From an uncultured Clostridia bacterium (GTDB lineage Bacteria; Bacillota; Clostridia; Christensenellales; CAG-917), in assembly GCA_947625225.1 (NCBI GenBank), contig CANQNQ010000007.1, positions 1 through 60,108 on the forward strand: 60,108 nucleotides of DNA, read 5' to 3'. The notes below the pieces were generated by a model. The model did no database searches. It had not been told where the DNA came from and saw only the letters and a list, made by a program, of their open reading frames with translations. Positions 31,102 to 34,566 of the stretch are shown piece by piece. The position numbers were made by a program, and so were the translations under genes. Position 1 is the stretch's first letter, and every line of letters begins with the position of its first letter.

Positions 31102-32130
31102 TCAGAACAGTTTGCCCCTCAAACCGTTCCAATCGATGGCGTTGTCGTTTGCGTCCTTTGGCGCGATGACTTGAAGGAATGCGATTATCTCGTTTTTCTC
31201 CTCCTCGTCCAATCTCTCGCAGTCTATGGCGCAGCGCGGTATGCTCGCCGCGGGGAAGGAAGCCGCCTCGTACAGATGCGCCTTTGCAAACGCGTCCACT
31301 TCCGCGGGATGAGCCTCCACCCAATCTTCACTTGCGTCAAGAGCCTCGAACAGCGCGTTCATAAACGTCGCGTTGCTTGCAAGCGAAGCGCGCACAAACA
31401 GCCCCGCCTGCGGATAGTTGTCGTCGTCAAGCTGCGCGGTGGACAGGCTGTACAGCCTCTGGATGTCCATCTCCGCGTTCAGTCTGGGATTTTTGGAGAG
31501 CATGGTGGTCGCGGCGGGTTCGCCCACGACGATATAGTCCACCTGTCCGCCGTTGAAACGCTGTCCCGCGGCGTTGCCGTCGGCAGCATACTCCACGTAA
31601 ACCTCGTTATTTTCCGCGGAGGGCGTGCCTTCGGATATTATGGTCATATTGTTTTTGCCAAGCACATACCTGAACACAAGTCCGGGCACGGCGTTTTGAC
31701 CTATGCACGCAACGCGTTTGCCCTTGAGGTCGTTTACGGTGATCGACGCGCCGCCCTCCTTGTTGCCAAGCAGATACAAGCTGCCCTCGACCGCTACGCT
31801 GACCAGTTTGAACTCCCTGCCCTGCATGATGAGGTTCGCGCCCGCGTTGATGGGCATGATGACTATGTCGGATTTGCCCATTTCGGCGTTGATGACGTTG
31901 GGTTTTACCACCTCATACTGCATGGACGCGCCGCCAATAGTGGGGTTGTCTGTGACAAGCCTTAGCATCGCGAGCGCGGGAGTACCCTCCGGCGCGACGA
32001 AGCGAAGCGTGGCGCCGTCAAGTCTTTTGGTATCGTTCTTGTCGTTGCACGCCGCAAACGCAAGCGTAAGCGCCGCGGCAAGCACGGCAATGAGAAGCGC
32101 TGCTACAAATGTTTTTAAAAGTCTTTTCAT
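31102..32130 (-). CDS. ABC transporter substrate-binding lipoprotein (NMT1/SsuA-like)
   Basis: A 342-residue lipoprotein. The signal peptide MKRLLKTFVAALLIAVLAAA ends in the lipobox FAAC (Cys about residue 28). The mature part has the two-lobed NMT1/THI5/SsuA fold: LRFVAPEGTPALAMLRLV, SDIVIMPINAGANLI, DLKGKRVACIGQ and GQVDYIVVGEPAAT. Members bind sulfonates, nitrate or thiamine pyrimidine precursors; the ligand cannot be read from sequence. Given the sulfonate theme of the window, a sulfonate is worth considering. GAGGTG lies before the ATG; the TM1266-like gene precedes it by 37 bases. Confidence 0.88.
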   Translation of the reverse strand: MKRLLKTFVAALLIAVLAAALTLAFAACNDKNDTKRLDGATLRFVAPEGTPALAMLRLVTDNPTIGGASMQYEVVKPNVINAEMGKSDIVIMPINAGANLIMQGREFKLVSVAVEGSLYLLGNKEGGASITVNDLKGKRVACIGQNAVPGLVFRYVLGKNNMTIISEGTPSAENNEVYVEYAADGNAAGQRFNGGQVDYIVVGEPAATTMLSKNPRLNAEMDIQRLYSLSTAQLDDDNYPQAGLFVRASLASNATFMNALFEALDASEDWVEAHPAEVDAFAKAHLYEAASFPAASIPRCAIDCERLDEEEKNEIIAFLQVIAPKDANDNAIDWNGLRGKLF

Positions 32131-32167
32131 ATTGCACCTCTGAAAATTGTTTCCATTATATATATGG

Positions 32168-32419
32168 CTATTCCACCTCGGCGGAGGTCAGCGCGGACTT
32201 CACGGACAGATTGCCAAGCCTGCCCAGCCTGCCCGTCAGCGCGGACAGCCTTTCCTGCTCCCCCTCGACGATCAGCGCTATGGTATTTACGCTCTTTCTG
32301 GGCACGCCCATCCTGCCCACGATGATGTCCGCAAAATCGCTTAGCACGCGCTGCATATCCAGCACCGCGTCCTTGTCGCCGCCGGTGACGACTATGCCCA
32401 CTACGCCTATCCTTTTCAT
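32168..32419 (-). CDS. TM1266-family (iron-only hydrogenase system regulator) protein
   Basis: An 83-residue ACT-like protein: MKRIGVVGIVVTGGDKDAVL, DIIVGRMGVPRKSVNTIALIVEG and LTGRLGRLGNLSVKSA match the TM1266 family, annotated as a putative regulator of the [FeFe]-hydrogenase system, related to the NikR C-terminal fold. No hydrogenase or HydEFG gene is present here; the gene is instead first in an ABC-importer operon, and it lies behind a 240-base structured leader. AAGGAG is its ribosome site. The ACT-like fold suggests that it binds a small molecule. Confidence 0.85.
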   Translation of the reverse strand: MKRIGVVGIVVTGGDKDAVLDMQRVLSDFADIIVGRMGVPRKSVNTIALIVEGEQERLSALTGRLGRLGNLSVKSALTSAEVE

Positions 32420-32655
32420 GCTTTCTCCTTTTTACAGCGAACAAAGCGTCATGATCCTTCAAAATGCGCGCCTGTATCGAGTTTTTGCGCCGATAAGCCT
32501 TTGAAAATAAAAGACGCACCGCGTAAAACGACAGTGCGAAAAATGCTTGCCTATGTCGTCCTACGCTCCGATATATACGCCTCTTGAGCCATCGCGCGGG
32601 ACAAGTCCCGTCCTCCGTTTTAAGGCGCGATCATCGCTTCAGATCGCTTTGATTT
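32420..32655 (-). ncRNA. Riboswitch-like structured leader of the TM1266/ABC operon
   Basis: The predicted transcript starts near 32655 and runs about 235 bases before the first start codon. In order on the minus strand: a GCGATC/GATCGC hairpin (32627-32647), a CGGGAC-TT-GTCCCG hairpin (32597-32610), then a 13-bp helix between 32554-32566 and 32521-32533 (two G-U pairs). That helix excludes a terminator stem CGCAC/GTGCG (32515-32519 with 32534-32538) followed by TCTTTTATTTT (32504-32514). Mutually exclusive antiterminator and terminator are the hallmark of an attenuation riboswitch. I do not recognise any known aptamer class. A variant of the dispersed repeat (about 32462-32478) lies downstream. 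Confidence 0.6.
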
Positions 32656-32660
32656 TTTAT

Positions 32661-32689
32661 ATTTTACAACATTGCGCGCGCTTTGTCAA
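32661..32689 (-). promoter_or_regulatory. Promoter of the TM1266/ABC operon
   Basis: TTGACA (32684-32689), 17 bases, TAAAAT (32661-32666) on the minus strand, just beyond the stop codon of the lipoprotein gene. It is 240 bases from the first gene, which defines the long leader. Confidence 0.82.
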
Positions 32690-32699
32690 CTTAAATAAC

Positions 32700-34511
32700 T
32701 CACGCGATAAGCTGGAAAAGCAAGCTGAGCAGGATTATAAATCCGCCCGCGCCGCTGTCCAACACGGTCTGCACGTATTGTTGCGCGGTCTCCTCGTCGG
32801 GCTCCGCCGTCAAAAACTCTCTATTGGCAAGGTCCTCCAGCAGCTTGCGCCTGTCGGGAGAGTTGTAGTAGTCGTCCAAAAACGCGATAAGGTCGTCGCA
32901 TATCTTCTCGTTGAGCGCCAGATTGAGCTGTTGCACCTTGCTTACTCCCGTCACGTTGTAGGACTCGTACCAAAGGCGTATCAGCTCGTCGTTGACGGAG
33001 CTGCCCAAATCGACGCTGTTGTGCGCGCCGAGGTCCTCGAAGTTGCACCTGTTTGCGGCGGACACAAGGTCTATCAGCGTGGCAAGCCCGTTTTGATAGA
33101 GGTAGTACGTCTGCCTGAACTTGCCTATGTTGAAGTGGAAACCTATTATGTTCACCATGTTTTCAAGATAGCTGTCGTCCATGATGTCCTTGTGCACGGG
33201 CAGCAGCAGATCCTCGTCGTTTTCCACGCCTATGTTGACGGAAAGATTGAGGATGAGGTCTATGATTATCGCGGGCACCGTCTTCTGGTAGTCCGCCTTG
33301 CCCTGCGCGCGTATGTTGTTGACCACAGAGACAAACTTGTCGCGGGTGAAGCTGTTCATAATCTCAACGATTATCTTCGAGGCAAATATGGTTGTGTTAA
33401 GTCCGTATGCCACGCTGTCGGAGTCGGCGCTGCCCGCCACAACCGTCCTGAATTGTTCCACAAACTGCGTGGTCTTGAACAGCTCCGCCGCGGAAGTCGC
33501 CATGTCGCACATGAAGGGTATCACCCCCACCACCATGTTGGCGTACTTTGCAAATTGCACCACCTGCGCGTACAGTTGCGAGTACAGCGCGGACGGCAAA
33601 AAGTCCTTGTCGAAGTTGGCGATGACAAGCCCTATCGCCTTGTCAAGTTTTTCAAGTTCGCTGTCCGTAAGCGAGTCCTTTAGCTCGACAATGTTTTGCG
33701 AAAGCGCGTTTACGATGGTGGACAGCTCCGCGTCCGTCACGTCGGACAGCGCGCCATCGCCCGTCAGCATATTTTCAAGCATCTCGTCCGTAAACGCCGA
33801 CGACGACATGTTGTAAACAAAGGCAATGAGGTTGGTTATCGCGCCCTTTGCGCCCTCAAGCGCGCCAAGCAGTTCCGCCTTTGCGTCCCCCTTTGGCACA
33901 AGCGTATCTCTGGCGCTGTTGATGGTGGTTATGGCGCCGTCTATGCTGGCTCTCCCCGCGGAAGTCCCCACGCCGGGCAGCGAACGCAACGCCTGCAGGC
34001 GCGCAAGTATGCCGTTCATCACGTTGCCGCTGTCGCTCACCAGCGACGTCAGCAGCAGGTAGAACAGTCCCGACACGTCGTCGCGCGTGAAATCCACCAT
34101 GTTGAATATGGGCACAATGCGGTCTAGGTTGCTGTCAAAGTCCGCTAGCAGCGCCTTGCCGTCCTCGCTTTCCACGGCGTCCGCAAGCACCTTCAGCTTG
34201 CCCGTCAACAGCTCTGACTTTTTGAGGATATCCGCCGCAAAGTCCGCCACGCCGCGAGCTACAACATACTCGCCCGCGTCGTCAAGTTTGAGTATCTGCT
34301 CGTCGCTGAGGCCCGCCTCCCAGCCCTCGCCGAGGGAGGAAAGCAGCGCGTTGCTCACCCGCGTCACGCTGGTCTGCCTGAGCGCGGCGTCGTCCTCCAC
34401 GTTTTGCTTATGCTTGTTGCACGCCGCCAGCATGATACAGCACAGCGCCGCCAATACGGCCGCCGTGACAAGGGTCGCCGCCTTAAGGATTTTGCGTTTT
34501 GTCAAATTCAT
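32700..34511 (-). CDS. Large helical lipoprotein of unknown function
   Basis: A 603-residue predicted lipoprotein. A basic head and hydrophobic segment lead to the lipobox MLAAC (Cys about residue 22). The remainder is rich in Ala, Leu, Asp and Ser and looks mainly alpha-helical, without repeats I can name; the last 17 residues (GGFIILLSLLFQLIA part) are hydrophobic. AGAGG precedes the ATG. It lies downstream of an FtsX-type permease and a LolD-type ATPase and may be their extracytoplasmic partner. A hairpin (34567-34585) sits between the permease stop and this gene. Confidence 0.7.
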   Translation of the reverse strand: MNLTKRKILKAATLVTAAVLAALCCIMLAACNKHKQNVEDDAALRQTSVTRVSNALLSSLGEGWEAGLSDEQILKLDDAGEYVVARGVADFAADILKKSELLTGKLKVLADAVESEDGKALLADFDSNLDRIVPIFNMVDFTRDDVSGLFYLLLTSLVSDSGNVMNGILARLQALRSLPGVGTSAGRASIDGAITTINSARDTLVPKGDAKAELLGALEGAKGAITNLIAFVYNMSSSAFTDEMLENMLTGDGALSDVTDAELSTIVNALSQNIVELKDSLTDSELEKLDKAIGLVIANFDKDFLPSALYSQLYAQVVQFAKYANMVVGVIPFMCDMATSAAELFKTTQFVEQFRTVVAGSADSDSVAYGLNTTIFASKIIVEIMNSFTRDKFVSVVNNIRAQGKADYQKTVPAIIIDLILNLSVNIGVENDEDLLLPVHKDIMDDSYLENMVNIIGFHFNIGKFRQTYYLYQNGLATLIDLVSAANRCNFEDLGAHNSVDLGSSVNDELIRLWYESYNVTGVSKVQQLNLALNEKICDDLIAFLDDYYNSPDRRKLLEDLANREFLTAEPDEETAQQYVQTVLDSGAGGFIILLSLLFQLIA

Positions 34512-34566
34512 ATATGCCTCTTGCCTGTATGCCGTCAATATGCAAAAACGGCATTTTTACGCACAT

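Follow-up and report, generated by a model that had tools for sequence, protein, structure and literature searches.

Transcription-terminating riboswitches combine a 5' sensor domain with an exchange between antiterminator and terminator and can occupy the leader of a transporter operon. In protein-controlled attenuators such as those of PyrR and HutP, the regulator is encoded by the first gene. The leader described here lies on the minus strand of a 60,108-nucleotide stretch of DNA from an uncultured Clostridia bacterium (the window). It shares all these features with the riboswitches, but differs from them in having no Rfam family at the gathering score and a single gene context. Like the PyrR and HutP leaders, it is directly followed by the gene of a small putative regulator, here of the TM1266 family; unlike them, it lies in a window without a match to the PyrR model, and RNA binding by TM1266 is only putative. 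We regard it as an RNA without an Rfam match whose kind, attenuator or riboswitch-like, is already known.

The leader extends from a sigma-70-type promoter (32689-32661) to the TM1266 gene at 32419. The promoter, with TTGACA at 32689-32684, a spacer of 17 and TAAAAT at 32666-32661, had been placed 240 nt ahead of the TM1266 start by the original prediction, and it was recovered on the minus strand with 11/12 matches and a predicted transcription start near 32654. Promoter-like sites in 32000-33000 numbered 2, compared with a shuffle mean of 0.6. A ribosome-binding site, AAGGAG (32430-32425), precedes the TM1266 gene (32419-32168), which encodes 83 amino acids and matches PF21699 (3e-20) and, above its cut-off, TIGR03959; the structure match was 2nzc (E 1.7e-4). 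TM1266 proteins have a ferredoxin-like fold and are not known to contain a DNA-binding domain. The genes of a substrate-binding lipoprotein (32130-31102), an ABC permease (31031-30249, PF00528) and an ABC ATPase (30333-29533, PF00005, its true start possibly inside the listed frame) follow on the same strand, in the same order as in the family loci. The lipoprotein was assigned an SsuA/ThiY-like fold by fold match, TIGR01728 being far below its cut-off (28.7 of 163.5 bits). Its predicted model had a pLDDT of 92.5, and the closest solved structure was 3hn0 (5.6e-30), which its depositors call 'Nitrate transport protein'; among the other proteins of matching fold are PqqT, SsuA, TauA, a thiamin-binding protein and the HMP synthase Thi5. 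The binding protein is apparently circularly permuted in five loci (L056, L061, L065, L070 and L110), where a block corresponding to residues 174-309 of the window's protein comes before one corresponding to about 41-164. Upstream of the leader, a 612-aa lipoprotein-like frame on the minus strand (32700-34538) had no Pfam match, and frames with 28-32% identity to it occur in the genus loci.

In the window, the model of the conserved RNA motif (R1) matched 32650-32552 with 29.3 bits (E 3.7e-5 in 465 kb). Sequence and comparison with relatives place the 5' strand of the sensor domain, AUCUGAAGCGAUGAU, at 32644-32630 and its 3' strand, UCGGAGCGUAGGA, at 32571-32559. The second helix contains an inverted second copy, CGGAGGA-hairpin-CGCGAUGG (32617-32589), a long form found in the window's genus as CGGAG-hairpin-CGAUGA. 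When 14 long forms were folded freely, the full arrangement was obtained for the window and four others (L033, L035, L043 and L048), and the remaining ones gave the inner part only or another fold. The original prediction contained neither the sensor domain nor the inverted copy. Its 13-bp helix was present in the sequence, with 32566-32554 pairing to 32533-32521 through two G-U pairs among the 13; the 5' strand of this antiterminator overlaps the sensor 3' strand, and its 3' strand overlaps the terminator stem. The intrinsic terminator (32538-32504) has a stem of seven pairs, one of them U-G (32538-32532/32521-32515), followed by UCUUUUAUUUU with the U-rich run at 32514-32504; terminator-like sites numbered 3, compared with 1.3 in shuffles. 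Because helix and terminator stem both need bases 32533-32532 and 32521, they are mutually exclusive, as had been claimed.

The leader of the window alone is no more stable than chance. Its folding energy was -73.4 kcal/mol, compared with a shuffle mean of -66.8 (sd 4.9), which gives a z of -1.34, and a DNA similarity search among 59 relatives found no sequence similar to the leader. Only a structure-aware comparison could therefore be decisive, and the support for a real RNA rests on that comparison since the fold of the window by itself is unremarkable. About 44 nt of the window (32447-32490) are 84% identical to G000:C6:16137-16179 (L002). A reading of the leader as a repeat was rejected, as this copy, which lies at the end of a gene resembling lspA in another part of the genome, concerns the stretch behind the terminator and not the motif.

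For the comparison, the DNA upstream of 38 TM1266 loci from the same family was collected. They have a common motif of about 30 nt, which lies close behind the promoter and would form the 5' end of the transcript. Of the 28 distinct short pieces obtained, L036 and L047 were omitted, where the last CRAUGA is part of the inner copy, and the other 26 were aligned with MAFFT. The structure was written by hand and comprises P1 (columns 6-9/41-44), a two-pair helix (14-15/35-36) and P2 (19-21/29-31) with internal loops between them. In these 26 short forms 84.4% of the cells were paired, compared with 72.3 after shuffling, a count biased towards the hand-written structure. The covariation score was 0.228, compared with 0.068 for shuffled and at most 0.074 for slid versions; for the 76 distinct rows that the model recovered it was 0.217, compared with 0.066 and at most 0.082. 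Conservation and covariation among relatives, which the original prediction had named as its check, were thus both observed, and the 5' leader contains a conserved covarying domain as expected of a riboswitch. The count of further pair types was not above that of shuffles (218 and 406 of 500 shuffles reached it). P1 was paired in only 69% of the cells, and three of its pairs as well as pair 10-41 (U-A 43, C-G 8, unpaired 25) were unpaired in at least a third of the rows. A quick permease-ATPase protein tree was built with 75 rows, taken from the 77 of the model plus six hand-entered long forms after those poor in protein had been dropped. Pair 14-37 was U-A, A-U or G-C in 74/75 rows and had changed at least 5 times on this tree, compared with 3 changes for the second pair of P2 (20-31).

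Paired and unpaired letters that are invariant or nearly so in 77 rows are C9, A13, C15, A17, U18, G19, C32, G33, G34, G36, G38, A40 and G42, and the two internal loops show strong letter conservation. This conservation exceeds what a plain terminator needs and argues against a constitutive attenuator or another non-ligand sensor, for example of temperature; such a device, which would fit the fact that no ligand could be identified from the sequence, appears unlikely. The CGAUGA/GGAG elements were also considered as a kink-turn, which has tandem sheared G-A pairs after a three-base loop. However, the A of the second helix pairs with U in 73/76 rows, and the remaining 3 have a U-A pair in its place. 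This exchange indicates a standard pair and speaks against a kink-turn.

The leader had originally been called unassigned, and the search with Rfam 15 agrees with this: at the gathering score no family was found in the window or in 20 loci of the order, which include 15 motif-bearing loci of the family. When three motif leaders were scanned permissively, nothing exceeded the threshold of any family. Among the candidates set aside, rox2 and snoR72 in the window were below the family thresholds. L053 had four sub-threshold matches, the best being L10-leader with 24.1 bits compared with a threshold of 44, aligned mainly at the terminator; L013 had five matches, all sub-threshold, and L137 had none. 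No publication joining TM1266 with a riboswitch was found in a paper library that covers part of the riboswitch literature, and an excerpt of PMC11109978 names other candidates.

The switch elements were then compared across a leader set from 130 sources, of which 124 had the motif together with TM1266 and 90 were distinct. A terminator better than -6 kcal/mol was present in 85/90 distinct leaders, compared with 37/180 shuffles. The attenuator layout of the original prediction is accordingly conserved and covarying, and a conserved attenuator as such is highly probable. A promoter was found at most 95 nt upstream of the motif in 77/89 leaders, compared with 79/445 mononucleotide shuffles, and in 62 of the 77 promoter-bearing leaders the distance from the end of the -10 box to CRAUGA is 13-24 nt, so that the motif would start the transcript. 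The AUG of CRAUGA, present in 88/90 leaders, might be taken as the start of a regulatory peptide for leader-peptide attenuation. Its frame relative to the conserved 3' strand varies, however (43, 26 and 19 of 88), and 83/88 leaders have no Shine-Dalgarno sequence by the pattern of our script. This reading was rejected as very improbable, there being no conserved reading frame with a ribosome-binding site.

The 3' strand of the sensor domain is complementary to the 5' arm of the terminator. In 84 leaders, the mean pairing energy of the sensor strand with its own arm was -13.9 kcal/mol, compared with -10.2 for shuffled arms and -11.2 for arms of other leaders (Wilcoxon p 4e-14 and 4e-10, respectively, with relatedness ignored). 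The own pairing was better than 95% of the shuffled arms in 39/84 leaders and better than 95% of the foreign arms in only 17/84, the window not being among the latter (rank 0.096); the complementarity is therefore partly generic. In the window, the antiterminator fold had -47.5 kcal/mol, compared with -37.9 for the sensor plus terminator. By sequence and folding energy, the leader has an expression platform that is exclusive with the sensor domain.

From these elements we infer a repressing transcription attenuator. Without effector, the sensor 3' strand would pair with the terminator 5' arm as an antiterminator, and the operon would be on by default. Binding of the effector would fold the 5' sensor domain and free the terminator 5' arm; the terminator could then form and transcription of the operon would stop. 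The effector would most likely be a small molecule related to the substrate that the importer takes up. We give this reading, with the small molecule as its likely effector, a probability of roughly 55%. By analogy, a metabolite as direct effector seems somewhat likelier than TM1266 as the sensor. Several points count against the reading. Effector binding or kinetic effects during transcription would have to make up for the gap of about 10 kcal/mol between the two folds, the changes at pairs 14-37 and 20-31 are few (5 and 3), and the constant linkage to TM1266 fits control by a protein equally well. Further points are the partly generic complementarity, the incomplete pairing of P1 and of pair 10-41, the unremarkable count of further pair types, and the family loci L039 and L054, which have TM1266-ABC genes but no motif, and L047 with its weak match.

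This linkage was followed with R1 in 396 genomes of the order. The motif was found in 65 of them with one match each, and in 64/65 it lies directly before TM1266 (27/28 family genomes and 37/37 others); in the sole exception, G060, the match is on another contig, near a contig end. In the class sample, 3/391 genomes had matches. One of these is a family member and two are marginal, with no operon genes downstream, and these two show how many matches arise by chance. R1 matched 34 of the 38 family loci at E < 0.01 and L047 at E 0.23; no match was found in L039, L054 and L064, the last of which is cut by a contig end. The window's own match was missed by a stricter genome scan, probably because of the long form. 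When GTDB was scanned with a pattern, 46 stretches were obtained, some of them in genomes already covered by the order scan. TM1266 followed in 43 of them, and the others were two on contig ends (L170, L181) and one in a Flavobacteriia record without TM1266 (L167). By their titles, the records with pattern matches are from Christensenella, Christensenellaceae, other uncultured Clostridia/Clostridiales, one Erysipelotrichaceae and one Firmicutes, many of them from rumen or gut. The tie of the leader to TM1266-ABC operons proposed at the outset was borne out by both scans, and in TM1266 a gene for a putative regulator adjoins the leader that would be its target.

The TM1266 protein, perhaps only with its ligand, might itself bind the motif and repress its own operon by attenuation. 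This alternative is tentative but has to be weighed seriously. The gene order is in its favour, and a symmetric binder would suit the inverted copy that leaders of the window's genus contain. On the other hand, the protein is not clearly basic (mean pI 7.6, with a pI >8 in 13/23 proteins), and L039 and L054 have TM1266-ABC genes without the motif.

TM1266 also occurs in a hydrogenase setting. Among 100 relatives, HydE, HydF and HydG were above the cut-off in 13, 11 and 12, respectively, and in none of the motif-bearing genomes. TM1266 is located beside HydE or HydG in 11 of the 13 relatives with HydE above cut-off, the exceptions being G072 and G094. A PF02906 protein was present in 91/100 relatives. 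In 6/7 PF02906 genes read from seven genomes, the first motif is TSCSP and not TSCCP, and the motif-bearing genome G098 has one TSCCP copy. The genes with TSCSP include those of G057, a genome with maturases, and of G036, a genome lacking TM1266. The absence of maturases from motif-bearing genomes, together with the frequent PF02906 proteins, had suggested that the importer takes up a precursor of the hydrogenase cofactor; the TSCSP findings weakened this idea, and it is no longer the main reading.

In 21/30 class loci a HydE/HydG-like gene lies downstream of TM1266, and at least 11 of those 21 have a leader of a second kind. It has the form CUGA-helix-AAAG, and its terminator arm can pair with GAAAGGC. 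Twelve examples, chosen and trimmed by eye (L009, L202, L206, L207, L213, L214, L216, L221, L223 and L227-L229), were aligned with MAFFT for a second model, R2. Their covariation score was 0.648, compared with 0.175 after shuffling. By eye or by a weak match, this second leader was also assigned to L003, L004, L010, L014, L018, L201, L219, L220 and L225. A scan of 196 genomes with R2 gave 37 matches in 36 genomes at E 0.05 or better. As read by hand from the coordinates, 19/37 lie just upstream of TM1266; they comprise 11 leaders from which the model was built and 8 new ones, so that 8/26 matches beyond the sources directly precede TM1266. For the remaining 18, the E-value would predict about 10, and those in G530 and G539 lie just behind TM1266. 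The second leader has no Rfam match: in 20 additional loci whose TM1266 leaders differ from the window's motif, a tRNA was the sole result at the gathering score. In L013, L015, L017 and L022, paired CCUGA..AAAGG strands lie upstream of TM1266, which is followed by a binding protein; by eye, these are possibly a form of the second leader.

The R2 leaders resemble the motif of the window in preceding TM1266 and, by eye, in a CUGA-like 5' strand, an AAAG-like 3' strand and a complementary terminator arm, here like GYGCCUUUC, but their helix and loops are different and cross-matches are weak. Since many TM1266-HydE/HydG loci carry another covarying leader, the leaders seem to track TM1266 and not the importer, which is in favour of TM1266 as the binder. 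Against it, the covariance models do not join the two kinds into one motif: R2 had 0 matches at the leader of 32 motif-bearing loci, and the best match of R1 in 38 loci of the TM1266-HydE/HydG type was the L213 leader with E 0.2. A single family for both kinds is not favoured, as cross-detection by R1 and R2 is unreliable, though the two may be kin. In a broader and rather doubtful form of the idea, TM1266 would be an RNA-binding co-sensor without a DNA-binding domain. In complex with its ligand it would hold short RNA helices that have two opposed purine loops and so terminate the transcript that encodes it. Across Clostridia, importer operons and operons for [FeFe]-hydrogenase maturation would each have a leader family of their own.

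The leader is a compact orphan regulatory RNA that is well supported and has one well-defined gene context; its favoured effector is a small molecule related to what the importer takes up. It offers a handle on two questions, the role of the TM1266 family and the cargo of the partner importer. Because the motif-bearing relatives lack the maturases that adjoin TM1266 elsewhere, the identity of the effector would show the link between the importer and the hydrogenase-maturase settings of TM1266.
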